NCBI GenBank assembly: GCA_040757115.1
Contig: JBFLYA010000131.1
Span: 1-10,607 of the forward strand
From: a bacterium
GTDB lineage: Bacteria > UBA9089 > CG2-30-40-21 > SBAY01
Length of the DNA: 10,607 nucleotides
Reading direction: 5' to 3'
Shown: positions 180 through 10,489 of the stretch, in pieces
Position numbering within the stretch: position 1 is the first letter of the stretch
Layout of the letters: the number at the start of each line of letters is the position of its first letter
Notes under the pieces: generated by a model
The model's input: the letters and a program-made list of their open reading frames with translations, nothing else
Databases searched by the model: none
What the model was told of the DNA's origin: nothing
Program-made: the position numbers and the translations under genes

Positions 180-380
180 GTAACCGTTCAAGTAGTCCTT
201 TACCGCAGAGACGCAAGAGTTCGCAGAGAAGACATAGAAATAAAGTAACTATTCAGCCACTGATTAACACGGATAAAAAAATAAAATCAGTGTTTCATCT
301 GTGTCCATCTGTGGCTGAATAGTTACCAATAAATTTTAATTTTTTCTCTGCGTCTCTGTGCCTCTGCGGTGAACAGTTAC
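180..380. repeat. nested palindromic repeat element (three concentric inverted repeats)
   Basis: The outermost arms are GTAACCGTTCA (180-190) and the inverse of GTAACTGTTCA (370-380). Inside these are arms of an eight-base-like degenerate unit (CGCAGAGA type), at 202-231 and 343-370. Innermost is a pair starting GTAACTATTCAGCCAC, at 245-274 and 286-326. The inner and outer pairs share the same terminus type. The element fills the gap between the 3' end of the membrane-protein gene, whose stop codon lies inside the right outer arm, and the probable rRNA promoter. Related half-elements occur at 10294-10350. There is no T-run, so it is not a classical intrinsic terminator, but it could form a large RNA or DNA hairpin. 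Confidence 0.85.
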
Positions 381-859
381 GCTACCAGAAACTGATTGAC
401 AATTTTTTGCCACTTCTCTTGTTTCGGAAAACAAATAAGGAATAAAACAAAAGATAGCCCGATTAAAAAATAAAATTCTCCTAACAGGCTACCTATTAAA
501 AATAAAACAAGGCCGTATAAAGCAATGGTTTCACATAAAGCAAAGATAAGGATGTTTCCCGAGATTAATGGTCTTATAATTTCATCAATTTTAGATTCTG
601 ATGTTAATGGAATTTTACCGGAATTATCTAAAAACCTTTTCAGGATAAGAATAACCACTATGGTTAAAGCAGAGATTAAATAAAGTATGTTTTTAAGCCA
701 GTCAAATTCTTTGAATTTAACTAAACCTTCAAAAGAGAAGTGGTGAAGTATATTTGGGATAAACAGATAAATAATCAACGAAAGGATATTGGCAAAATAT
801 ACTATTCGAATAGTTAAAAGGGCATGGTTAAATTTAGTTTTTGAAGTTGGTTCTAACAT
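377..859 (-). CDS. four-helix integral membrane protein of unknown function
   Basis: A 160-residue protein with four predicted membrane segments at about residues 14-36, 57-76, 99-124 and 127-144. A soluble stretch of about 22 residues lies between helices 2 and 3, and the C-terminal tail is basic. Helix 3 carries a buried acidic residue (E110) in ALCETIALYGLVLF, which resembles the outer helix of ATP synthase subunit c. The surrounding architecture is not that of subunit c, so this is only a resemblance. The ATG at 859 has a good Shine-Dalgarno (AGGAGAG, 5-nt spacing), which supports the start. The last residues and the TAA lie at the edge of the 180-380 repeat. The gene is downstream of mutL on the same strand, but more than 400 bp of repeats lies between, and I see no promoter of its own. 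Function unknown. Confidence 0.75.
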   Translation of the reverse strand: MLEPTSKTKFNHALLTIRIVYFANILSLIIYLFIPNILHHFSFEGLVKFKEFDWLKNILYLISALTIVVILILKRFLDNSGKIPLTSESKIDEIIRPLISGNILIFALCETIALYGLVLFLIGSLLGEFYFLIGLSFVLFLICFPKQEKWQKIVNQFLVA

Positions 860-864
860 TGTAT

Positions 865-871
865 CTCTCCT
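865..871 (-). promoter_or_regulatory. Shine-Dalgarno site of the 160-residue membrane protein, inside a repeat module end
   Basis: On the minus strand the site reads AGGAGAG, 5 nt before the ATG at 859. The same bases form the end of the repeat module whose right terminus is TCTCCTGAAAAT (866-877), as also seen at the end of the full copy at 962-1013. The ribosome binding site therefore appears to be supplied by, or to have been captured from, the repeat. Confidence 0.55.
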
Positions 872-961
872 GAAAATAGTTAATTAGAGATTAGAGAATT
901 AGTGAATTAGAACCTGCACTCTTGCTAATCTCTAATCTCCAATCTCTAATCTCTATGCTCA

Positions 962-1013
962 ATTTTCATCCTCGTTTGTGAACCGCAGGTTCATGCCTGG
1001 TTCTCCTGAAAAT
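962..1013. repeat. 52-bp repeat module, copy A
   Basis: It begins ATTTTCATC and ends CTCCTGAAAAT, so its 7-bp termini are inverted (ATTTTCA/TGAAAAT). Near the middle is a perfect small hairpin, GAACC-GCA-GGTTC. Copy B at 1121-1172 has the same length and about 70% identity. Confidence 0.7.
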
Positions 1014-1120
1014 AATCCGCAGATTTCGCAGATTACACAGATTTTTATTTTTTTATCTCCCCACTGGCGGGAGATTAAGAGGTTAGGGGATTCTTTTATT
1101 CCCGAATCCCGAGTCCCTTA

Positions 1121-1172
1121 ATTTTCATCGTCATTTGTGCCTTGGAGGGGCATGTCCGTTTCCCCTGAAAAT
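1121..1172. repeat. 52-bp repeat module, copy B
   Basis: It aligns without gaps to copy A over all 52 positions and has the same inverted termini. The central stem differs at four of five positions, but GCCTT-GGA-GGGGC still pairs through C-G and G-U pairs. Conserved pairing despite changed bases suggests that the folded form matters. It sits in the loop of the CGGGACT inverted repeat. Confidence 0.7.
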
Positions 1173-1212
1173 CGGGACTCGGGACTTGGGGTTCGGGACT
1201 CGGGAAGGCTGG

Positions 1213-1244
1213 TAGCCGCAGGCTTCAGCCTGATTTCACCTGAA
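1213..1244. repeat. partial module, copy C
   Basis: This resembles the right two-thirds of modules A and B. A central stem AGCC-GCA-GGCT is followed by a TTCAGCCTG-type segment and then CACCTGAA. It ends 18 bp before the mutL stop codon. Confidence 0.5.
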
Positions 1245-1262
1245 GCATCAAACCCTTGTTAC

Positions 1263-3005
1263 TTAAATTCTCATAAATCGTTTCTCCAGTTCATTTAAAC
1301 TCATCTTGATTATTACTGGTCTGCCGTGTGGGCAGGTAAAAGGTAATTGTGTTTGTGATAATTGTAAAATCAATGCCTCTATTTCCTGTTGAACTAATTT
1401 ATCACCAGCTTTTATGGCACAGTGGCAACTCATTGAGATAAGTATCTTCTCTCGAATTTCTTGAGGTGTCTTACTCCTTTCTATTGTTTGAATTTCATAA
1501 ATAAGTTCAAAAATTAACTCCCTGGGCTCTCCTTTTTCTAATGCGGCGGGAACAGAACGAACAATAAATGAATTCTGTCCAAATTCTTCTATCTCAAACC
1601 CTAATGAATTAAAAATAGGTAGATTTTGAACCAGAACCGCTGTCTCTTTATAATCCGTCTCAAGGGTAATGGGGATTAGTAGAATTTGTGCAGGTAAAAT
1701 CCGTTCATCAATGGCTTCCTTCATTAATTTCTCATAAAGGACTCGTTCATGAGCCGCATGCTGGTCAATGATAAAAATATCCTCTTTACCCTGAGCAATA
1801 ATATAGGTATTAAATACCTGACCAATAACCTGTAATTCAGCAGGAAGTGATAAGTGAGGAGAGGGTAGGGGAGGTATGGTTAGTGGTGAGGGTGGCGTCA
1901 TAGTAGGTGTTTGTTTAATTGTGTAATCTGGAAGAGGTATTTCCTGTTGCATCATTGGTTGAGGTTTGACCCACTGTGTTTGAACTTCAGGAGGTCGGAC
2001 ATCAGGTATTAAACTCGCCCTGGATAGGGTGTTTCGGATTGCCTCTACCAATAAATTATGCACCTCATTCTCATTATGAAATCGTATCTCCCGTTTTGTG
2101 GGATGAACATTTACATCTACTTTGTCAGGGGCGATGTTTATAAAAATTATAACGATGGGGTGTTTATCTTTAGGAAGTAATGTATGATACCCTTGATAAA
2201 TAGCATGGGTAACAGTTTTATTCATCACATAACGGTAATTAACAAATATAGATTGGAGATTTCTATCAGGACGGGTATGAATCGGTTTGGCTAAAAAACC
2301 ACTTACTTCAAGCAGATTACTTTTAAATTCAATCGGCAAAATGTCTTGTGATAATTCTTTTCCTAAAAAGTGAAGTATTCTTTCTTTAAAATCCGAACTG
2401 GCGGCAACATTGATTATCTCCTGATTATTATGAATTAATCTAAATGAAACCTGCGGATGACTGAGTGCATTTTGATAGACAACATCATTGATATGAGCGA
2501 TTTCGGTGATATTAGTTTTAAGGAATTTTTTTCGAGCCGGGGTATTGAAGAATAAATTTTCAACTTCAATTACCGTGCCTATTGCCGCACCTATTTCGGT
2601 TACCTCTTTGATTTTACCACCCTCAAGTTTGACTGATGTGCCAGAAATACTCTCTTTGGGTCGGGTAATAAGTTTGATTTGAGAGACAGCGGCAATACTG
2701 GGTAATGCCTCCCCTCTAAAACCAAAAGAACAAATTGCATCTAAGTCTTTTGCAGTAGAAATTTTACTTGTAGCAAATCGCTCAAAAGCTAATACAGCGT
2801 CTTCTTTACTCATCCCCTCGCCATTATCCGAGACTCGGATGAGACTTTTTCCGCCATCAATCACTTCAACCACAACTTTTGTGCTTTTGGCATCAAGTGA
2901 ATTTTCGACTAATTCCTTGACAACAGATGCCGGTCTTTGCACCACTTCACCTGCGGCGATTTTATTCGCAATTTCCTCTGGTAAAATTTTAATCCTTGAA
3001 CTCAT
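1263..3005 (-). CDS. mutL: DNA mismatch repair protein MutL (endonuclease type)
   Basis: A 580-residue MutL of normal length. The N-terminal GHKL ATPase motifs are all present: KELVENSLDA at 30-39 (E31 matches the catalytic Glu29 of E. coli; N35 binds Mg), DNGEG at 60-64, GFRGEA at 95-100, NTPARKKFL at 154-162 and VDVNVHPTKREIRF at 296-309. A proline-rich linker spans about 335-388. The C-terminal dimerisation domain has the metal-binding endonuclease motif DQHAAHERVLYE (414-425), CHCAIKAGD (527-535) and CPHGRPV (558-564). MutL homologues with this motif nick the new strand themselves, working with MutS and the clamp in the absence of MutH. The start fits the family (MSSRIKILP), although only GAGGG directly abuts the ATG and the promoter is very close. 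mutS is not in the window. Confidence 0.97.
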   Translation of the reverse strand: MSSRIKILPEEIANKIAAGEVVQRPASVVKELVENSLDAKSTKVVVEVIDGGKSLIRVSDNGEGMSKEDAVLAFERFATSKISTAKDLDAICSFGFRGEALPSIAAVSQIKLITRPKESISGTSVKLEGGKIKEVTEIGAAIGTVIEVENLFFNTPARKKFLKTNITEIAHINDVVYQNALSHPQVSFRLIHNNQEIINVAASSDFKERILHFLGKELSQDILPIEFKSNLLEVSGFLAKPIHTRPDRNLQSIFVNYRYVMNKTVTHAIYQGYHTLLPKDKHPIVIIFINIAPDKVDVNVHPTKREIRFHNENEVHNLLVEAIRNTLSRASLIPDVRPPEVQTQWVKPQPMMQQEIPLPDYTIKQTPTMTPPSPLTIPPLPSPHLSLPAELQVIGQVFNTYIIAQGKEDIFIIDQHAAHERVLYEKLMKEAIDERILPAQILLIPITLETDYKETAVLVQNLPIFNSLGFEIEEFGQNSFIVRSVPAALEKGEPRELIFELIYEIQTIERSKTPQEIREKILISMSCHCAIKAGDKLVQQEIEALILQLSQTQLPFTCPHGRPVIIKMSLNELEKRFMRI

Positions 3006-3017
3006 CCCTCAACTTTT

Positions 3018-3046
3018 ATTGTATAATATTCATTTTATAATGTCAA
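3018..3046 (-). promoter_or_regulatory. mutL promoter, near-leaderless
   Basis: On the minus strand, -35 TTGACA (3046-3041), a 17-bp spacer and -10 TACAAT (3023-3018) are seen. The expected start of transcription is about 6 nt before the mutL ATG, so the mRNA would have almost no leader and no usable Shine-Dalgarno. It is arranged back to back with the radical SAM promoter. Confidence 0.65.
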
Positions 3047-3057
3047 CTAAAAAATAG

Positions 3058-3086
3058 TTGCAAAGTAGAATTATTTGTGATATAGT
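3058..3086 (+). promoter_or_regulatory. promoter of the radical SAM gene, leaderless
   Basis: TTGCAA (3058-3063), a 17-bp spacer and TATAGT (3081-3086) are seen, with TGA just before the -10 as an extended element. Only 9 nt separate the -10 from the ATG at 3096, so transcription should start 2-4 nt before the ATG. No Shine-Dalgarno is present. Confidence 0.6.
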
Positions 3087-3095
3087 TAATCTACG

Positions 3096-4505
3096 ATGAA
3101 AATCTTATTAATCTCTCCACCTAAAATGAAAACACAGGATTCCCCCTTAATTGTCTTCGAAGAGGTGCCAAAATACTATCCTCCACTGGATTTGATGTCT
3201 ATTGCGGCTTGTTTGAAGAAAGATTATGATGTAGAAATTCTGGATGCACAGGTCTTAAATCTGAGTTATGAGGACATTCGTCAGGAAATAATAGCTAAAT
3301 CCCCAAATATTATTGGAATCAAAACAACTATCTACACATTATTAGAAACGATTGATGTCGCTAAACTAATAAAAGAAATAGACAATTCTATCCATATAAA
3401 TTTATGCGGTCCTCATACTCATATTTTTCCAGAAATAATTAATTTACCCTGTATTGATTCATTAATTATTGGTGAAGAAGAGATTGTTTTTAGTCAATTA
3501 GTAAATTCTTTTCATAATCTAAGTCAGATAAAAGGTATAATTTATAAAGAGAATGGTCAAATTATTCACAGTCCTTCCCAGGAGGTAATTTTCAATCTTG
3601 ATTCTTTACCTTATCCGGCTCGGGAGATGACTCCATACAAAAAATACACGATTAATTCAAACACGATTTTTACCACGATATTAAGTAGTCGGGGATGTCC
3701 TTATGATTGTCTTGAGTGTCATTTGCCTGCATTTAGTAAGAGTTTTCGAACAAGAAGCAGTGTGAATGTAGTTAATGAAATACAAGAATGTTTAAAATTA
3801 GGTATTCAGGAGTTTATCTTTGTTGATGATGTGTTCACACTTAATCGCAAACGGGTTTTTGAACTATGCGACGAAATCATAAGACGGAATCTAAAGATTA
3901 AATGGCGGATTAACGCCAGAGCCAATAATATCGATTATAGTCTGGTATTAAAATTAAAGGAGGCAGGTTGTCATTGGATTCATTATGAAATGACGAGTGG
4001 TGTGCAGAGTATGTTAGATTTTTTAAAAAAAGAAATTACTCTAAAGCAAATCCAATACGCTATTAAAGTCACTCAGGATGTCCGAATAACCAGTTCTGTA
4101 GATATTATCCTTGGATTACCTGCACAAACAAAAGAAGATGTTCAGGCGACTCTCAGAGTTGTTAATAAAATTAATCCTGATTTTGTCAATTTTCTGCTTA
4201 ATCTTCCATATCTAGGTCCGGAGGGTTCAAAAATCCTTATGTGGACACAAGAAACCAGTCTATCTCATTATTACAGGCATCTAAATCTTTTCTTTGATTC
4301 TAATCTGGAATTTCCGTTACATCAAAATATCGATGAACTGATAACGCTATTAAAACTTGCCTATAAAAAATTTTACTTCAGACCAGGCTTTTTTATTAAA
4401 CAGTCTTTAACTTCACATTCCTATGATGTGTTTAAAAAGCGGATAAAGATTAGCCTTAAGGTAATGGTCAGTGAAATGGGGGATTCTCCTGAAAGTAGGA
4501 AGTAG
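3096..4505 (+). CDS. radical SAM protein with N-terminal cobalamin-binding-type domain
   Basis: A 469-residue class-B-type radical SAM protein. Residues 1-160 resemble the Rossmann-like B12-binding domain (MKILLISPP start, CGPHTHIFPE at 104-113, IIGEEE at 124-129), but the DxHxxG lower-ligand motif is absent, as is common in this class. The radical SAM core follows, with the cluster motif CPYDCLEC (201-208; C201, C205, C208), FVDDVF at 242-247, RINARAN at 271-277 and DIILGLPAQT at 336-345. The usual G-x-E-S-G motif is altered to EMTSG (298-302). Such proteins carry out methylation, methylthiolation or ring chemistry on varied substrates; the substrate cannot be read here. The last five or six residues (around SPESRK) and the stop are encoded by the edge of a repeat. 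The gene stands alone, with no pathway partners next to it. Confidence 0.88.
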   Translation: MKILLISPPKMKTQDSPLIVFEEVPKYYPPLDLMSIAACLKKDYDVEILDAQVLNLSYEDIRQEIIAKSPNIIGIKTTIYTLLETIDVAKLIKEIDNSIHINLCGPHTHIFPEIINLPCIDSLIIGEEEIVFSQLVNSFHNLSQIKGIIYKENGQIIHSPSQEVIFNLDSLPYPAREMTPYKKYTINSNTIFTTILSSRGCPYDCLECHLPAFSKSFRTRSSVNVVNEIQECLKLGIQEFIFVDDVFTLNRKRVFELCDEIIRRNLKIKWRINARANNIDYSLVLKLKEAGCHWIHYEMTSGVQSMLDFLKKEITLKQIQYAIKVTQDVRITSSVDIILGLPAQTKEDVQATLRVVNKINPDFVNFLLNLPYLGPEGSKILMWTQETSLSHYYRHLNLFFDSNLEFPLHQNIDELITLLKLAYKKFYFRPGFFIKQSLTSHSYDVFKKRIKISLKVMVSEMGDSPESRK

Positions 4506-4655
4506 GAGAGTAGGAGAGTAGGAAAGTAGGAAAGGGGGAGACATTGCCCCCAGAAGAGGAATACCGTGCACATCCTTTATCCCTTTCCTACTTACCTACT
4601 ACCTACTTGCCTACTATTTTCATTGCTCTGTCCTCCGCAGGTTAATGTTTATTCC
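4484..4655. repeat. palindromic repeat between convergent genes (GTAGGAA heptamer type)
   Basis: A module end TTCTCCTGAAA (4484-4494) is followed by GTAGGAA/GTAGGAGA units (4495-4533), a small GGGGG/CCCCC hairpin (4534-4551), a spacer, and the inverted arm of CCTACTT-type units (4581-4616). Then comes ATTTTCAT and a degenerate copy of the 52-bp module that includes CCGCAGGTTAATG (4616 to about 4655). The left edge overlaps the end of the radical SAM coding sequence. The right edge is about 33 bp from the stop of the hydrolase gene. It occupies nearly the whole convergent gap. Confidence 0.8.
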
Positions 4656-4687
4656 CCCAAATAACTGACGTATTACGCCTTAAGACA

Positions 4688-5440
4688 TTAAAGATTTAAT
4701 CTCATCAAATCTTCAGATAATAAAAATTCGCCTGAGTAGTGCTTTTTGCATTGAGCGGCTAAATCATAATCATCACATAAAGGATAAAAATGGGTCAGGA
4801 CTAATTTTTTACAATTAGACTCACTGGCAATCTTAGCGGCAAAATAAGGTGTAAGATGTCCTTCAACCTTAATCTCATCAGGAAAGGCACATTCCAAAAT
4901 TAATAAATCCGTGTTTTGAGCCAATTTAACTATCTGCGGACAATAATCTGTATCACCAGAGATAGTTACACTTTTGCCCTCTTTGGTCTGGAATCTGTAA
5001 CCAACACTATTTTCACTGTGGATGATAGGCATTGTCTTTAATCGCCAATTATCAAATTCAATCTCATTATCACGCACTTCTGTAAGGAAGAGATTATAAC
5101 TTTGTGGGGTAATCCAATCACCATATACTTTAAGTAGTCTATCATAGAAATCTTTAAACCCAACAGGTCCGATTACTTTCAGGTCATTTTCTCTTAATCG
5201 TACTGGATTTTTGTAGGCAAAAAGGAATGAGACAAAATCAATCGTATGGTCTGGATGAAGATGGGTGTAAAGTAGATAATCAATTTCTAAATAATCTAAC
5301 TGTGCCTCTAATAATTTCCTTAGTGTTCCAGAACCACTATCAATGAGGATATTTTGATTTTCAATCTTTAAAAATATAGCCGGCGATGCCCGTTTTAAAG
5401 TAGGGATAGCCGTTCCTGAGCCAATAATGATTATTTCCAT
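4688..5440 (-). CDS. metallo-beta-lactamase-fold hydrolase, RNase Z-related superfamily
   Basis: A 250-residue protein beginning MEIIIIGSGTAIP, typical of the RNase Z/YhfI/cyclic-phosphodiesterase branch of MBL hydrolases. Metal ligands visible are H60, H62, D64 and H65 in THLHPDH, H141 in IIHSENSVGYR, D163 in SGDTD and H217 in LTHFYP. The HLTP motif at 195-198 is also typical. It lacks a clear RNase Z flexible arm and is about 50 residues shorter than standard RNase Z, so a small-molecule phosphodiesterase or general MBL hydrolase is more likely than a tRNA 3'-endonuclease. It is cytoplasmic (no signal peptide). The start is supported by the family N-terminus; there is no Shine-Dalgarno. It is a single gene flanked by repeats on both sides. 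Confidence 0.85.
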   Translation of the reverse strand: MEIIIIGSGTAIPTLKRASPAIFLKIENQNILIDSGSGTLRKLLEAQLDYLEIDYLLYTHLHPDHTIDFVSFLFAYKNPVRLRENDLKVIGPVGFKDFYDRLLKVYGDWITPQSYNLFLTEVRDNEIEFDNWRLKTMPIIHSENSVGYRFQTKEGKSVTISGDTDYCPQIVKLAQNTDLLILECAFPDEIKVEGHLTPYFAAKIASESNCKKLVLTHFYPLCDDYDLAAQCKKHYSGEFLLSEDLMRLNL

Positions 5441-5446
5441 AAGTAA

Positions 5447-5474
5447 AATATACTATCGAGGCTTATTATCTAAA
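5447..5474 (-). promoter_or_regulatory. possible promoter of the MBL hydrolase gene
   Basis: On the minus strand, TTTAGA (5474-5469), a 16-bp spacer and TATATT (5452-5447) are seen, 6 nt before the ATG. The mRNA would be leaderless. The -35 is a weak match and overlaps the left terminal repeat of the 5470-5679 element. Confidence 0.35.
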
Positions 5475-5679
5475 CTTTGGCAAAAAATATAAGAGACGAC
5501 AGGAAAAAACTTAAAATTTAAAACTAAAAATGCAAAACTCGTTTATAGTTTATAGTGTATAGTTTATAGTGTATAGTTTATAGTGTATAGTCCTTCCACT
5601 AACAACTATCAACTATAAACTATCAACGATTTTTAGTTTTAAGTTTTTCAAAGAAGTTTGCAAATTTGCCAAAGTTTAG
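5470..5679. repeat. 210-bp nested palindromic element with perfect 15-bp ends and GTTTATA heptamers
   Basis: The outer ends CTAAACTTTGGCAAA (5470-5484) and its exact inverse (5665-5679) form a perfect 15-bp terminal inverted repeat. Inside are A/T-rich arms of AAAACTTAAAACTAAAAAT type (about 5503-5531 and 5629-5648). The core has seven consecutive 7-bp units alternating GTTTATA and GTGTATA (5541-5589). A 10-bp spacer (5591-5600) separates these from an inverted arm of related heptamers (GTTGATA and GTTTATA, 5601-5628). No coding potential is seen. The element fills the gap between the TPR gene stop (13 bp away) and the hydrolase promoter. Confidence 0.9.
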
Positions 5680-5692
5680 TTATTATCTGCCC

Positions 5693-7978
5693 TCATCTGG
5701 GTATTTTACCCTTTAATAGGGCGATTTTATCCTTAATTAATTCAGATAATTCACCTTTACCATAGATACTTGTCGGATAGGTTTTTTGGAGTTTTTCATA
5801 AATTAAAGCGGCTTTTTGATATTCACCTGCCTGTTCCTCACATTCTGCAATATGATATAAGGCATGCGGGACTAAATCAGAGGCAGGAAAGTTATCTGCG
5901 ACCTTTTGCCACTGTTCTTTAGCCTTATCAAATTCTCCCATTGCATAAAATGTTTCTGCCTTTCCGTAGATAGCATAGGGACTCCAATAACTATCCGGAT
6001 ATTCATTAATAAGTTTATCATATTGAGTAATTGCCGAGTTATATTCACCATATTCTTGAGTTCTACGGGCAGTATCATAAAGGACTTTTGATTGTTCATC
6101 CTTTAGTTTATTTTCGGCAGTGGTCAGTAATTCTTTAGATGTATTAGCAAATTTAGTGTCAGGATAGGTATCTATTATTTTTTTAAATTGTAAAGCCGCA
6201 TCTTGTAAATTTCCCTGTTCATAAAGGCGAAGGGCAAGATTATACTCTTCTTCGGCACTCTTTGGCGTTCCTTTTTTTGAAATAGCGACTAAGTTTTCCT
6301 CTGACTTTTTAGCATATTCCGTATTCGGATAATTTTCCTTTATCTCTTCAAACCATTCTGTTGCACTCTTATAGTCACCTAAGGCATAATATCGAAGGGC
6401 AATATCGAATTTGCGTTTAACTCGGTCGGTTTTCATTGCTTCTTCTGCCTCATTAATTCCAGATTGAGCCAATGTAGCATATTCAGTATTGGGGTAGTTA
6501 GTGATAATTTGTTGAAAGGTATTTATTGCCAGAGGATAGCTTTTTTCTTTCATCAAAGTAAGTCCTTTTTTATATATTTTATAAGCCTCATCTTCACTTT
6601 CTTTGGTTTCTATTTCTAATAGTTTTTTCTGGGCATCTTCTTTATACTCAGTCTTTGGATATTCGGTGACAATTTCTTTAAATCCCTCTTTTGCCTTAGC
6701 CAATTTTTCCTCTTCATAAAGTTTCGTTGATTCCTCCCATTTCTTCTTAGCCTGTAAGTAATCTTTTTCTTCTTCAATCAAGGTCATTGCTTTTTCGGCT
6801 AATTTAGCATATTCACTTTCAGGGAATTCAAACATTACTCGTTTAAATTCGTGGATTGCCTCATCATAATTTTTTTGTCTTAGTGCTACCTCTCCTCGGT
6901 CATATATGGTGCGTGCCTCTTTGTATGAAGTAACCACTAAATCTTCATTAATTTTTGACAATAATCCTTTAGCCTCATTTATTAGTTTGCTATCAGGATA
7001 TTTATTAATCAATCTGGTAATTTTCTCTTTAGATTCCTTGTATTTTTTATCGGCATAAAGAGAATTAGCCTGGTCTAATAATTCTTTTGCCTGTTTTTCT
7101 TCATACTCTGCTTTAATCTTCTCAATTGCCTTTTGAGAAGAATCAACATATTTACTCTTTGGATATTCTTTTATTAATTTCTCAAATGAAGCGATAGCCT
7201 CCTGGTCATTCTCCAATCGGTATTGACACCAGCCAATAGAATATAAGCAATAATCAATATATTTACTTTCAGGATAATTTGTGATAACCTTTTTATATTC
7301 TTTTAATGCCTCCTCGAATTTATTTTGATAATAGAAAGATTCACTTATTTTCAATTGAGCGTAATGAGCAAAATTACTTGTTTTAAATTTCGTCAGGAAA
7401 TCTCTAAATAAAGAAATAGCCTGTTGATAATCCTTTGCCTCATAAGATGCTTTCGCCTTTTGTAACAATTCTTCTTCAGTTTCAGTCTGTTGAATAGTCG
7501 GTTGCTGTGTAGTGGCTGTTGCTGTTACAGATTTAGAAGGGAGATATTTTTCTAATTCTGACAGGTTATATTCTGCGTAATTTGCATCCGGGGTATCTGG
7601 ATAGCGTGTTTTAATTTTAGTAAATGCCCTTTTCGCACCGGCATAATCGCCTAGTTTTTGGAAAGATTCACCAGCTCGACTTAATGCCTGTTTTGCCATT
7701 TCTAACCCCGGGTATAAATCTGCCACTTTTTCAAAAAGCATTGCCGCATTTAAAAAATTTCGGAGTTGGTATTCGCATTCTGCTGATAGCAATTGGATAT
7801 CAGAAACTTTTTCTCCAGACGGATGAAGGTCTAAGTATTTCTGGCAAAATTTATTTGCCTCATTAAAATCACCTTTGTTAAATGAATTAACTGCCTGGTC
7901 ATAAATTTTAATCTCATCCTGAGCCCAAACATTTATACTTAGCCCTATTAATAATAAACAGATTAAAAATCTTCTCAT
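5693..7978 (-). CDS. large secreted tetratricopeptide-repeat protein, BamD/YbgF-like
   Basis: A 761-residue protein with a cleavable signal peptide (residues 1-19, cleavage likely at VWA-Q), so it is probably periplasmic; there is no lipobox. Nearly the whole chain is TPR-like, with the signature YPxSxYxxxA recurring. YP or FP pairs occur near residues 90, 127, 236, 273, 328, 386, 441, 496, 551, 606, 661, 698 and 735. The spacing is 37 residues at both ends but 55 in most of the middle, suggesting TPRs with an inserted third helix. A Thr/Gln-rich linker (about 148-168) follows the first repeats. Such proteins scaffold envelope complexes (outer-membrane assembly, Tol-Pal, gliding or secretion systems); which one cannot be told here. 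The start is supported by GAGGTG 6 nt upstream. It probably forms a single-gene unit between two repeats. Confidence 0.88.
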   Translation of the reverse strand: MRRFLICLLLIGLSINVWAQDEIKIYDQAVNSFNKGDFNEANKFCQKYLDLHPSGEKVSDIQLLSAECEYQLRNFLNAAMLFEKVADLYPGLEMAKQALSRAGESFQKLGDYAGAKRAFTKIKTRYPDTPDANYAEYNLSELEKYLPSKSVTATATTQQPTIQQTETEEELLQKAKASYEAKDYQQAISLFRDFLTKFKTSNFAHYAQLKISESFYYQNKFEEALKEYKKVITNYPESKYIDYCLYSIGWCQYRLENDQEAIASFEKLIKEYPKSKYVDSSQKAIEKIKAEYEEKQAKELLDQANSLYADKKYKESKEKITRLINKYPDSKLINEAKGLLSKINEDLVVTSYKEARTIYDRGEVALRQKNYDEAIHEFKRVMFEFPESEYAKLAEKAMTLIEEEKDYLQAKKKWEESTKLYEEEKLAKAKEGFKEIVTEYPKTEYKEDAQKKLLEIETKESEDEAYKIYKKGLTLMKEKSYPLAINTFQQIITNYPNTEYATLAQSGINEAEEAMKTDRVKRKFDIALRYYALGDYKSATEWFEEIKENYPNTEYAKKSEENLVAISKKGTPKSAEEEYNLALRLYEQGNLQDAALQFKKIIDTYPDTKFANTSKELLTTAENKLKDEQSKVLYDTARRTQEYGEYNSAITQYDKLINEYPDSYWSPYAIYGKAETFYAMGEFDKAKEQWQKVADNFPASDLVPHALYHIAECEEQAGEYQKAALIYEKLQKTYPTSIYGKGELSELIKDKIALLKGKIPR

Positions 7979-7984
7979 TTTTTA

Positions 7985-8038
7985 CACCTCACTTTGGGAA
8001 GATATAATATTTTTATCATAAATTTCTTCTGCTGTCAA
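7985..8038 (-). promoter_or_regulatory. Shine-Dalgarno and possible promoter of the TPR gene
   Basis: On the minus strand, GAGGTG (7990-7985) lies 6 nt before the ATG, a good Shine-Dalgarno. TTGACA at 8038-8033 could be a -35. The best-spaced -10 (17 bp, TAAAAA at 8015-8010) is poor, so the promoter call is weaker than the ribosome binding site. The -35 lies only 12 bp from the edge of the 8050-8300 repeat. Confidence 0.5.
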
Positions 8039-8049
8039 GAAAAAAGTTT

Positions 8050-8300
8050 GTAAGCGTTCAGGTGGTGTAACAAAAGGAGATGTGGAGATTAAGGAGATAG
8101 GGAGATATTATTAAAAAAATTGAAATTAATAGAAATTTATGGAAATTTGTTGTTTTCCACAATCAATTTCTACCTATTTTTGCTTCGCAACATTTTTCGA
8201 ATTCTATAAATTTCAATCTATTTCTATTATCTTATCTCCATATCACTCTTATCTCCTTATCCCCTTTCTTACACTTTTGATATATAGCCTGAACGGTTAC
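8050..8300. repeat. 251-bp nested palindromic element (GGAGATA heptamers), partner of the right-edge copy
   Basis: The ends are GTAAGCGTTCAGG (8050-8062) and the inverse of GTAACCGTTCAGG (8288-8300). Inside are arms of GGAGATA/GGAGATTAA units (8077-8107) and their inverse (about 8230-8272), then A/T-rich arms of TAGAAATTTATGGAAATTT type (8127-8150) and their inverse (about 8204-8229). From 8127 to 8300 it matches 10340-10489 in inverted orientation, base for base as far as I can read, except for an extra 24 bp here (8180-8203). It occupies the gap between the NHL gene 3' end and the TPR gene promoter. Confidence 0.9.
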
Positions 8301-8306
8301 AAAAGT

Positions 8307-8322
8307 TTGATAAGTTGATAAG
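8307..8322. repeat. short tandem duplication beside the 8050-8300 element
   Basis: TTGATAAG occurs twice in direct succession, between the repeat edge and the stop of the NHL gene. It may be a remnant of another short tandem array like those in the arms of the larger elements. Confidence 0.5.
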
Positions 8323-8337
8323 GAATTATGTTTATTT

Positions 8338-9300
8338 CTACTGGATAGTAAGAATAAAGCTACCCGTTGAGGTAAATTTTTGAATACGGTGATTATAGGT
8401 ATCTACGACATAAAGATTTCCTGCAGAGTTTCTGGCGATACCAGTTGGTTGATTGAACTCACCATCCGCAGAACCAAACTTACCAAATTTAAGGATAAAA
8501 CTTCCAAAAGGGCTAAATTTCTGTATTCGGTGATTATCGGTATCAAGCACAAAAATATCATCAGAGGCATCCGAACAAATCCCTTGTGGTTGATTAAAAT
8601 CTCCATCTTCACTACTTCCAAATTTACCCCATTTATGAAGATATAAACCCGTGGGGCTAAATTTTTGAATTCGATTATTGCCCATATCAACCACATAAAT
8701 ATTACTTAAGGAATCTACATCTACTCCTGAGGGATACCTAAACTGTCCCTCCCCGGTTCCAGCACTACCTATTTGAATGGTAAAATTTCCAGTTGAGGTA
8801 AATTTTTGTATCCGATGATTATAGGTATCGACAACATAGACATTATCATTCTTATCAACATAGATACTATAAGGTCGGTCAAACTCTCCCTCTTCAAATC
8901 CAGGTTGACCAAAAGTTAGCAGGAAATTTCCATCTCTATCAAACTTTTGTATTCGGTAGTTATTAGTATCCGCCACATAAATATTACCAACCGAATCTAC
9001 TCCTACGCCGTAAGGGAATTTAAACTTACCTGTTTCTGTGCCCATACTGCCCAGTTTCATAATAATATCACCATTTTTATTAAATTTACAGATTCGATGA
9101 TTATTGGTATCCGCAATATAGATATTATCTTCTTTATCTATCGCAATCCCGTGTGGAAACTGGAGGTTATGGCGACGATAAGTCCATTGAGATAAGGTAT
9201 CATCACGGTATTCTTCACTTACATTAACAGGCACCTGCGGCGAAGAAGCACAACCAACGAGGATTAAATTAATGACTAAAAGGAATAAAATCTGTCTCAT
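8338..9300 (-). CDS. NHL-repeat six-bladed beta-propeller lipoprotein
   Basis: A 320-residue protein with a lipoprotein signal (hydrophobic residues 4-15, lipobox LVGC with C17). Ala at +2 suggests sorting to the outer membrane. Six NHL blades follow, each with a hydrophobic G-[IV]-x-[VI]-D-x-x-x-N-[IV]-Y-[VI]-x-D motif and an N-[HNY]-R-I-Q-K-F strand. The N-x-R-I positions are near 67, 114, 161, 208, 256 and 303, a period of 47-48 residues, as expected for a closed six-bladed propeller. NHL propellers mediate protein or ligand binding and some have enzymatic roles; nothing here indicates catalysis. Blades 3 and 6 are nearly identical over DTYNHRIQKFTSTG. The gene has a near-consensus promoter and only a very short leader with no clear Shine-Dalgarno. 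Confidence 0.9.
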   Translation of the reverse strand: MRQILFLLVINLILVGCASSPQVPVNVSEEYRDDTLSQWTYRRHNLQFPHGIAIDKEDNIYIADTNNHRICKFNKNGDIIMKLGSMGTETGKFKFPYGVGVDSVGNIYVADTNNYRIQKFDRDGNFLLTFGQPGFEEGEFDRPYSIYVDKNDNVYVVDTYNHRIQKFTSTGNFTIQIGSAGTGEGQFRYPSGVDVDSLSNIYVVDMGNNRIQKFSPTGLYLHKWGKFGSSEDGDFNQPQGICSDASDDIFVLDTDNHRIQKFSPFGSFILKFGKFGSADGEFNQPTGIARNSAGNLYVVDTYNHRIQKFTSTGSFILTIQ

Positions 9301-9314
9301 TTATCTTGTAAAGA

Positions 9315-9343
9315 ATTATAGCATTTTGAATTACAATTGTCAA
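9315..9343 (-). promoter_or_regulatory. consensus promoter of the NHL lipoprotein gene
   Basis: On the minus strand, TTGACA (9343-9338), a 17-bp spacer and TATAAT (9320-9315) are seen, with TGC before the -10 as an extended element; both hexamers match the consensus perfectly. The -10 ends 14 nt before the ATG at 9300, so the leader would be only about 7-8 nt. Confidence 0.85.
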
Positions 9344-9368
9344 CTAATAAGAATACCCCAAAAAATCC

Positions 9369-9398
9369 TTGACAAATAATGCGGTAATGTGATATACT
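9369..9398 (+). promoter_or_regulatory. promoter of tRNA-His (and probably the TonB-like gene)
   Basis: TTGACA (9369-9374), an 18-bp spacer and TATACT (9393-9398) are seen, with TGA just before the -10. Expected start is near 9405, about 16 nt before the tRNA. It is divergent from the NHL gene promoter. Confidence 0.75.
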
Positions 9399-9420
9399 TA
9401 TTATTAATAAGGGAAAATAT

Positions 9421-9497
9421 GGTGAGCGTAGCTCAATGGTCAGAGCGAAGGACTGTGGCTCCTTAGGCTGGGGGTTCGAATCCCCTCGCTTATCCCA
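9421..9497 (+). tRNA. tRNA-His (anticodon GTG)
   Basis: A full cloverleaf: acceptor stem GTGAGCG (9422-9428) with CGCTTAT (9487-9493), including two G-U pairs; D-arm GCTC/GAGC; anticodon arm AAGGA/TCCTT with loop CTGTGGC; five-base variable loop; T-arm GGGGG/CCCCT with loop TTCGAAT. The extra G at -1 (9421) faces C73 (9494), the identity mark of bacterial tRNA-His. CCA is encoded (9495-9497). The next gene's Shine-Dalgarno begins directly after CCA. Confidence 0.95.
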
Positions 9498-9504
9498 GAA
9501 GAGG
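9498..9504 (+). promoter_or_regulatory. Shine-Dalgarno of the TonB-like gene, directly after tRNA CCA
   Basis: GAAGAGG lies 7 nt before the ATG at 9512 and starts at the base after the tRNA CCA end. There is no terminator or room for a separate promoter, so the mRNA is probably released by tRNA 3' processing with a leader of about 14 nt. Confidence 0.6.
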
Positions 9505-9511
9505 CAAAAAT

Positions 9512-10291
9512 ATGCACTATGACACTGTATTCAATCGTTCTTTAATTATTTCTACTACCTTTCATATCTGCATAGTCATAATTTTTTTCTTTATTACCTT
9601 CCACCCCCCTGTTCCTTTATTTAAAACAATCGAAATCTCAATTGTAAGACTTCCAGAAAAAGAAGAACCAAAACCAGAAATTTTAAAACCTAAAATCACG
9701 AAAAAAATTAGTGGAGTCGTTAAAGAAAAACCTCGTTTAAAGGTCAAAAACTTACCACAAGCGATTAAAAAACCTATAATTCCTCCTCCAATTAAATCAA
9801 CCGGAATACAAGAAGTAAAAGAGATAATAACACCCCTTCCTTCTGCCCCGGGAGGGACTAAAATAGATGATTTTCATGGCGAAGTGCCTGTGCCGAAATC
9901 AACTACCCCACAAGAAATTATCTCTACTGGTGAAAAAGATACACAGGTAAGTTCAATTCTTCCTCCTCAGGAAGGGAAAAAAGATGGTGAAACAATAGGT
10001 CCTTATATTCATATTGGTGGACCGGCTGGTGAAAGAAAGGTGTTATATCAACCAAAGTTTAAAATCCCTTATTGGTTAGAAAAAAGTGGACAATCCATCA
10101 AGGGAAAATTAAAAATCTGGGTTCTACCGGATGGCTCTATTGATAAGGTCGAGATAGATGAATCCTTTGGTTATGCGGAGATTGACCGATTAGCCCAATC
10201 TGCGGTCTATAAATGGCGATTCTATAAACTGCCGTCGGATATTAAAAGAATAGATTGGGGCACGGTAATCATTACAATTAAATTAGAATAA
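9512..10291 (+). CDS. TonB-like energy transducer protein
   Basis: A 259-residue protein with TonB architecture: a short cytoplasmic N-terminus, one membrane helix (about residues 11-30), a periplasmic Pro/Lys/Glu-rich spacer (about 48-130, with KPKIT, PPP and similar runs) and a C-terminal TonB domain from about 178 (QPKFKIPYW, then KGKLKIWVLPDGSIDKVEI and the A-x-x-x-W-R-F helix/strand near 231-237). TonB proteins couple the inner-membrane proton gradient, via ExbB-ExbD, to outer-membrane receptors. No ExbB, ExbD or receptor gene is in the window, so the partner is unknown, and a TolA-like or other role is possible. It lies 14 bp behind tRNA-His and is probably co-transcribed with it. The stop is followed within 2 bp by a repeat element. 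Confidence 0.85.
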   Translation: MHYDTVFNRSLIISTTFHICIVIIFFFITFHPPVPLFKTIEISIVRLPEKEEPKPEILKPKITKKISGVVKEKPRLKVKNLPQAIKKPIIPPPIKSTGIQEVKEIITPLPSAPGGTKIDDFHGEVPVPKSTTPQEIISTGEKDTQVSSILPPQEGKKDGETIGPYIHIGGPAGERKVLYQPKFKIPYWLEKSGQSIKGKLKIWVLPDGSIDKVEIDESFGYAEIDRLAQSAVYKWRFYKLPSDIKRIDWGTVIITIKLE

Positions 10292-10293
10292 AA

Positions 10294-10489
10294 GTAACTA
10301 TTCAGCCACGGATGGACACAGATGAAACACGGATTTTTTGTAACCGTTCAGGCTATATATCAAAAGTGTAAGAAAGGGGATAAGGAGATAAGAGTGATAT
10401 GGAGATAAGATAATAGAAATAGATTGAAATTTATAGAAATAGGTAGAAATTGATTGTGGAAAACAACAAATTTCCATAAATTTCTATTA
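10294..10489. repeat. repeat elements after the TonB-like gene; inverted copy of 8127-8300
   Basis: The first part, GTAACTATTCAGCCAC onward (10294-10339), matches the inner arm of the 180-380 element. At 10340 GTAACCGTTCAGG starts a second element that matches the inverse of 8127-8300 through 10489, apart from the 24 bp found only in the other copy. The match stops abruptly at 10489. The second half of this palindrome is not present in the window. Confidence 0.88.

Follow-up and report, generated by a model that had tools for sequence, protein, structure and literature searches.

We consider it very probable that the palindromic repeats described here are non-autonomous, recently mobile, MITE-like elements of IS66-type derivation, and that they lie at gene 3' ends through the loss of insertions that were harmful. 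Members of the main family are mostly 150-550 bp long, carry IS66-type ends (GTAAC[C/T][G/A]TTCA...) and are flanked by exact 8-bp target duplications; these IS66-type MITEs are intermixed with other short palindromic elements. The identification is based on the GTAACYRTTCA ends with their 8-bp duplications, on empty sites in a sister genome and on an IS66-type transposase located between the same ends. A repeat pattern that looks like a gene-end signal can thus arise from small mobile elements that are lost wherever they do harm.

Genes and repeat elements of the window

The window, i.e., the whole stretch of 10,607 nucleotides that was analysed, is contig C131 of a 4.32-Mb draft genome. It carries a tRNA-His gene and seven protein genes, whose products are a hypothetical membrane protein, MutL, a B12-binding radical SAM protein, a metallo-beta-lactamase fold protein, a TPR/YfiO-like protein, an NHL repeat protein and a TonB C-terminal protein. 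The features referred to below are:

377-859, minus strand: gene with its stop codon at 377
3006-3095: divergent gap of 90 bp between the MutL and radical SAM genes, without a repeat
3096-4505: radical SAM gene
9301-9421: divergent gap of about 120 bp between the NHL gene and tRNA-His, without a repeat
9422-9497: tRNA-His gene
180-380: E1, an IS66-type MITE with ends GTAACCGTTCA...TGAACAGTTAC and the 8-bp duplication GCTACCAG at 172-179 and 381-388 (assigned from the exact duplication and the ends); arms of CGCAGAG words of the GxxExxY type, matching arms and ends around the GxxExxY genes L203/L208
245-326: element nested within E1, GTAACTATTCAG...CTGAATAGTTAC, with CACGGAT-type words and inverted arms at 245-278 and 293-326
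862-1254: E2, a 393-bp composite of word-repeat hairpins with TTAGAGA words, CGCAGATT words and GGACTCG heptads
958-1013 and 1117-1172: two copies of the 56-bp core module of E2, ATTTTCATCNTC...CTCCTGAAAAT
4461-4676: E3, 216 bp, with ends GTAATGGTCAGT...ACTGACGTATTAC, the 8-bp duplication GCCTTAAG at 4453-4460 and 4677-4684, and GTAGGA-word arms (read directly)
5470-5679: E4, 210 bp (5463-5686 with its duplications), with ends CTAAACTTTGGCAAA...TTTGCCAAAGTTTAG and the 7-bp duplication TTATTAT (read directly)
8050-8300: E5, an IS66-type MITE with ends GTAAGCGTTCAG...CTGAACGGTTAC and the 8-bp duplication AAAAGTTT at 8042-8049 and 8301-8308
10294-10489: E6, a piece of a CACGGAT element (GTAACTATTCAG at 10294) followed by an E5-type piece (GTAACCGTTCAG at 10340)

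A first-pass annotation of this DNA had placed a palindromic repeat at or near the stop codons of all seven protein genes and none in the two 5'-5' gaps, and both observations hold in the window. All seven 3' ends have an element, but there are only six element clusters, E3 being shared by the stops at 4505 and 4688. The distance from E3 to the stop at 4688, given as about 33 bp, is actually about 3 bp, because the right end and the target duplication reach 4684. A repeat is indeed present beside the stop at 1263, but it is the composite E2 and not a single element. The overlaps reported at 377 and 4505 are also correct, and they mean that the insertion provides a new stop codon. E1 supplies the gene at 377-859 with its stop, which is the TAA within the terminal GTAAC of the element, and E3 interrupts the radical SAM gene near its 3' end, so that the last 14 codons and the stop of this gene consist of element sequence.

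Internally, the elements consist of inverted arms built from tandem 7-10-nt words, giving a long hairpin on either strand. Among 226 intergenic tandem arrays in the genome sample, 164 had period 7, 28 period 8, 15 period 9 and 14 period 10. The words of E5 are GGAGAT and TAGAAATT. The element nested in E1 has a related copy at 10294, and 103 bp of E6 (10336-10438) repeat 8202-8304 exactly in inverted orientation. We found neither a complete end pair nor a target duplication for E6, and no complete pair of ends for E2. Besides the main family, the window contains two further families, one GTAA-ended (GTAATRGGTCAGT) and one whose ends are different and whose duplication measures 7 bp.

Ends, target duplications and mobility

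We counted 677 copies of the end motif GTAACYRTTCAG in the 4.32 Mb of the genome, compared with 2 of the reversed control; its frequency is similar in a genome of the same genus and lower and varied elsewhere in the phylum. We compared the flanks of the 109 nearest end pairs lying no more than 500 bp apart, trying duplication lengths of 5 to 11. An exact direct duplication of 8 bp was present at 37 of the 109 pairs, and any other length at 0-3. With up to one mismatch allowed, 39 pairs had an 8-bp duplication as opposed to 1.1 with shuffled right flanks; about two thirds of the pairs are without a recognisable duplication. The elements are short (most duplication-bounded copies measure 118-550 bp), have matching terminal inverted repeats and a target duplication of constant length (8 bp), contain no transposase gene and differ in presence between close relatives, with clean insertions and duplicated flanks in both directions, all as expected of MITEs.

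This polymorphism was evident from contig C139 of the sister genome G001, which is collinear with the window and about 98% identical. E5 is absent there, a single AAAAGTTT is left, and an E3-type element inserted 9 bp beyond it is flanked by copies of GATAAGTT. The target of E4 is taken by a different element (ends TA-AGCACTTATTAATC), and in place of E2, with its 393 bp, there are only 71 bp, which end in an unrelated repeat remnant. Both genomes carry E3. In genomes G002 and G003 the DNA similarity of the radical SAM gene ends at 4461, the first base of E3, and the gene continues to its own stop without the element. Many copies of E3 and dozens of copies of E5 are found in G001. Single copies of the target 8-mer mark further empty sites, for example GAAATACT and TAATGAAG in the window's genome and AAGAAAAG in G001. 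Across a collinear alignment of 166 kb, 40 of the 49 indel or replacement sites of at least 50 bp contained repeat 12-mers, against a background of about 3%.

These data bear on other origins. Single-strand Y1 transposition is not known to make an 8-bp target duplication. REP/BIME palindromes, which a RAYT (Y1) transposase mobilises, are likewise palindromic, intergenic, abundant and mobile and are not known to carry such a duplication; however, the elements described here are mostly 150-550 bp long, have GTAAC ends and are flanked by exact 8-bp target duplications, whereas REPs measure 20-40 bp and in many cases bear a GTAG tag at the end (PMC3733652). Length, ends and duplication led us to reject both this origin, to which we give almost no chance, and a CRISPR origin. 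Growth of simple-sequence repeats in place by slippage and without transposition would fit the predominance of 7-nt tandem arrays, and slippage has been proposed for bacterial heptanucleotide repeats (PMC4679880), but it would yield neither complementary arms nor fixed ends, 8-bp duplications and clean empty sites, and presence/absence polymorphism with target duplications was observed. We therefore regard slippage as a very unlikely origin, although it may still shape the arms after insertion.

Transposition by an IS66-type enzyme agrees with the GTAA... ends, which are a trait of the IS66 family. Five places in the window's genome match PF03050 (IS66 transposase). One of them, G000:C277 (E=1.9e-39), lies between GTAACCGTTCAGGTA at L164:893 and its inverse ending at 2455, a segment of about 1.56 kb bounded by GTAACCGTTCAGGTAT and the inverse GTAACCGTTCAGGTAG. 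A transposase gene between matching ends is thus present in the genome, though in a damaged copy that is interrupted by two in-frame stops and lacks a target duplication. Since no intact IS66-type transposase with these ends was found, we infer the mobilising enzyme from this copy; the elements of the window would then have been mobilised in trans by an IS66-type transposase. Target duplications of 8 bp are also made by the IS66-family elements ISPpa5a and ISPpa7 of Paracoccus (PMC3281130). Along with the duplication, the elements share with IS66-family ISs and MITEs the GTAA... ends and a PF03050 gene between the same ends in the genome. What differs is the interior, which is not that of an IS66 element with a simple internal deletion but consists of inverted arrays of 7-10-nt words common to small non-transposase genes.

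Placement relative to genes

To place the repeats genome-wide we used 60 stretches of the window's genome (1.19 Mb, 803 called genes); the gene caller reproduced all seven window genes exactly. A strict palindrome finder returned 239 merged palindromes, of which 232 are intergenic and 4 lie within genes. In 20 stretches it found 71 merged palindromes, compared with 0 in Markov-2 controls. Palindromes were present in 25 of 57 convergent, 25 of 56 divergent and 134 of 630 co-directional gaps. The first-pass annotation had stated that its 3'-end reading would fail if, after length correction, the repeats were as common in divergent as in convergent gaps, and in the 60 stretches no significant difference was left: in a logistic model on gap length net of elements, the convergent versus divergent log-odds were 0.46 (95% interval -0.40 to 1.22). 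The lack of repeats in divergent gaps therefore does not extend beyond the window. Binning by total gap length gives 8 of 15 convergent versus 1 of 10 divergent gaps of 150-300 bp with a palindrome, a comparison that is biased because the element itself turns a short gap into a long one. The two divergent gaps of the window (90 and 120 bp) are shorter than its complete elements (201-251 bp), and gaps of 60-150 bp in the sampled stretches were empty in divergent (0/5) and convergent (0/6) orientation alike, so the missing repeats there are uninformative. The proposed rule that repeats occur only at 3' ends is mostly an effect of gap size.

A modest but real local bias persists. Within 20 bp of the gene boundary, palindromes occur at 38 of 347 3' ends (11%) but at only 12 of 373 5' ends (3%; p=5e-5), an excess that weakens with distance, and in 14 of 766 genes the TAA of an element end serves as the stop codon. 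The milder suggestion of the annotation, that the repeats are tolerated at 3' ends, is borne out by these numbers. We propose, as the most economical explanation, that an IS66-type transposase would move gene-less derivatives in trans, that insertions in coding sequence or close upstream of start codons would be lost, and that those at or just past a stop codon would be tolerated, as the TAA of an element end can even serve as the stop. The 3' placement therefore probably reflects that insertions do least harm there and not a dedicated gene-ending signal; elements would remain near gene 3' ends because harmful insertions in genes and start regions have been lost.

The annotation had also suggested that the repeats function as 3' ends of transcripts, as insulators separating units or as RNA-stability hairpins; on this reading such work, including insulation of convergent units, would keep them at 3' ends. 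This finds some agreement in the excess within 20 bp of 3' ends, in the position of E3 between two convergent genes and in the strong folds of most elements on both strands. E1, for example, folds at -88/-99 kcal/mol, compared with -43/-49 kcal/mol for shuffled sequence; most window elements lie well below the shuffled energy, but E6 and one E2 module (1013-1175 on the plus strand) do so only weakly. Against Rfam at the gathering score, the window and 140 kb of its genome gave only tRNA and tmRNA, so that the hairpins match no described RNA family at this score. Against such a function, divergent gaps hold elements equally often, and avoidance of start regions accounts for the bias equally well. 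The annotation saw no stem followed by a T-run after any window gene, and our promoter and terminator scan, with counts at chance level, also detected no GC stem with a T-run just past the stop at any window gene end. The elements themselves have no T-run, and in the sampled genome the frequency of T-run terminators is as low at 3' ends that have an element (2/208) as at those that have none (2/178), 1% in each case. Moreover, the elements turn over quickly: in the sister genome, 98% identical in the genes, a different element occupies two of the gene-end sites and only a 71-bp remnant is left at a third. The functional reading is unsupported and, in our view, unlikely.

Word-repeat arms around S23 and GxxExxY genes

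The arms of the window-type elements are shared with S23/four-helix-bundle and GxxExxY genes, of which the window's genome has 26 (PF05635) and 65 (PF13366) matches, respectively. Requiring on each side an arm that scores at least 13 and lies within 250 bp, we found inverted arms around 23 of 30 S23 and 21 of 30 GxxExxY loci of the window's phylum, whereas control genes of similar size had them in 13 of 132 cases, scored with a slightly stricter seed. The words of the S23 genes L173, L195/L198 and L199/L202 (ACTCGGG, AAACTAT/AACTATC and AGAGGGC) make up some of the most frequent heptad arrays in the genome, and such arrays far outnumber S23 genes. Two of these words are present in the window: ACTCGGG, which forms the commonest heptad array of the sampled genome and flanks L173, in E2, and the GTTTATA heptads (period 7) that form the arms of E4 and flank L195/L198. 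E3 has a GTAGGA word like that of L190.

The window elements themselves have no S23 gene between their inverted repeats and are presumably gene-less deletion derivatives. Consistent with this, a duplication-bounded element at L089:15465 (target duplication AATAATTC) contains a frameshifted S23/four-helix-bundle gene, and the G001 insertion at TAATGAAG, whose site is empty in the window's genome, holds part of a gene read as GxxExxY. At the loci tested, complete S23 and GxxExxY elements had no target duplication, so the order of gene-bearing first and gene-less later is unproven.

These arms provide a clue to the roles of S23/four-helix-bundle and GxxExxY genes and to the abundance of heptanucleotide repeats in the spaces separating bacterial genes. 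Should inverted heptad arrays prove to be the usual frame of S23 genes, the two puzzles would come down to a single element. We give roughly even chances to the idea that S23 genes across bacteria are cargo of one widespread hairpin class with inverted arms of 7-nt words, in which the word varies while period and complementarity are kept. The 23S rRNA intervening sequences (IVS), the cyanobacterial and Xanthomonas heptads and the window hairpins would be members or remnants of this class, and GxxExxY elements a sister class with 8-10-nt words. The S23 structure 2GSC/XCC0516 is from Xanthomonas (PMC4990558). In the 23S IVS of Coxiella burnetii, a 28-bp terminal stem encloses an S23 gene in the loop, with heptamers (GACAGAT) repeated in tandem ahead of the start codon (PMC4990558). 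The S23 genes studied here likewise lie within inverted arms of 7-nt words; in contrast to the IVS, the window copies carry no gene. Heptanucleotide repeats, for which no explanation has been settled on, are described from cyanobacteria, Beggiatoaceae and Xanthomonas (PMC4692102, PMC4679880), the last with about 70 inverted pairs per genome; according to the Xanthomonas paper, its repeats generally had no association with mobile elements (PMC4692102). Cyanobacterial STRR and Xanthomonas GGGAATC repeats resemble the window arms in their 7-nt units and intergenic position but differ in that the cited parts of their descriptions make no link to S23. In the open-licence literature we found nothing that links the word sequence, GxxExxY, or S23 with heptamers, and no paper that joins these facts.

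GxxExxY matches were also found in other phyla. In a wider genome sample, mostly from other phyla, 22 of 29 S23 genes had arms compared with 2 of 110 position-shifted controls, and of the 19 arms whose period was clear, 16 had period 7. On named plasmids (nine cyanobacterial, one from Gemmatirosa), 8 of 10 S23 genes had arms, mostly of heptads.

Copies of the 56-bp module and gene ends

The composite repeat at 862-1254 of the window holds two copies of a 56-bp module, which are 75% identical to each other:

958-1013, copy 1, ATTTTCATCNTCRTTTGTG...CTCCTGAAAAT, between word arms
1117-1172, copy 2, ATTTTCATCNTCRTTTGTG...CTCCTGAAAAT, between word arms

The module ends in the motif TCTCCTGAAAAT, of which 1.19 Mb of the same genome contains 42 copies. 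Genome-wide sampling showed that only about 1% of gene ends are followed by stem-plus-T-run terminators, and the organism may thus use other means of termination.

Word arrays around S23 genes

Inverted arrays of 7-nt words frame S23/four-helix-bundle genes in many bacterial families, with a word that differs at most loci (L173-L202, L323-L361). Two cyanobacterial CRISPR operons carry an S23 gene with such heptad arms:

L352 and L353, plasmids of Anabaena sp. 90 and Pseudanabaena galeata, S23 gene between cas6 and cas4

Other observations in the two genomes

Several contigs of the draft genome start within about 200 bp of these palindromic elements (e.g., C4:41, C6:112, C8:131, C10:111), suggesting that the repeats probably break the assembly. 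A separate repeat with the core ATCTGAACCATGTGGGATATAAA, present about 43 times in the own-genome stretches L031-L090, looks like a CRISPR array. The sister genome G001 contains a 1.15-kb segment (L311, 2038-3191) that is absent at L037 13396 in the own genome; read by eye from the sequence, its small genes look like a UPF0175/PIN-domain toxin-antitoxin pair.
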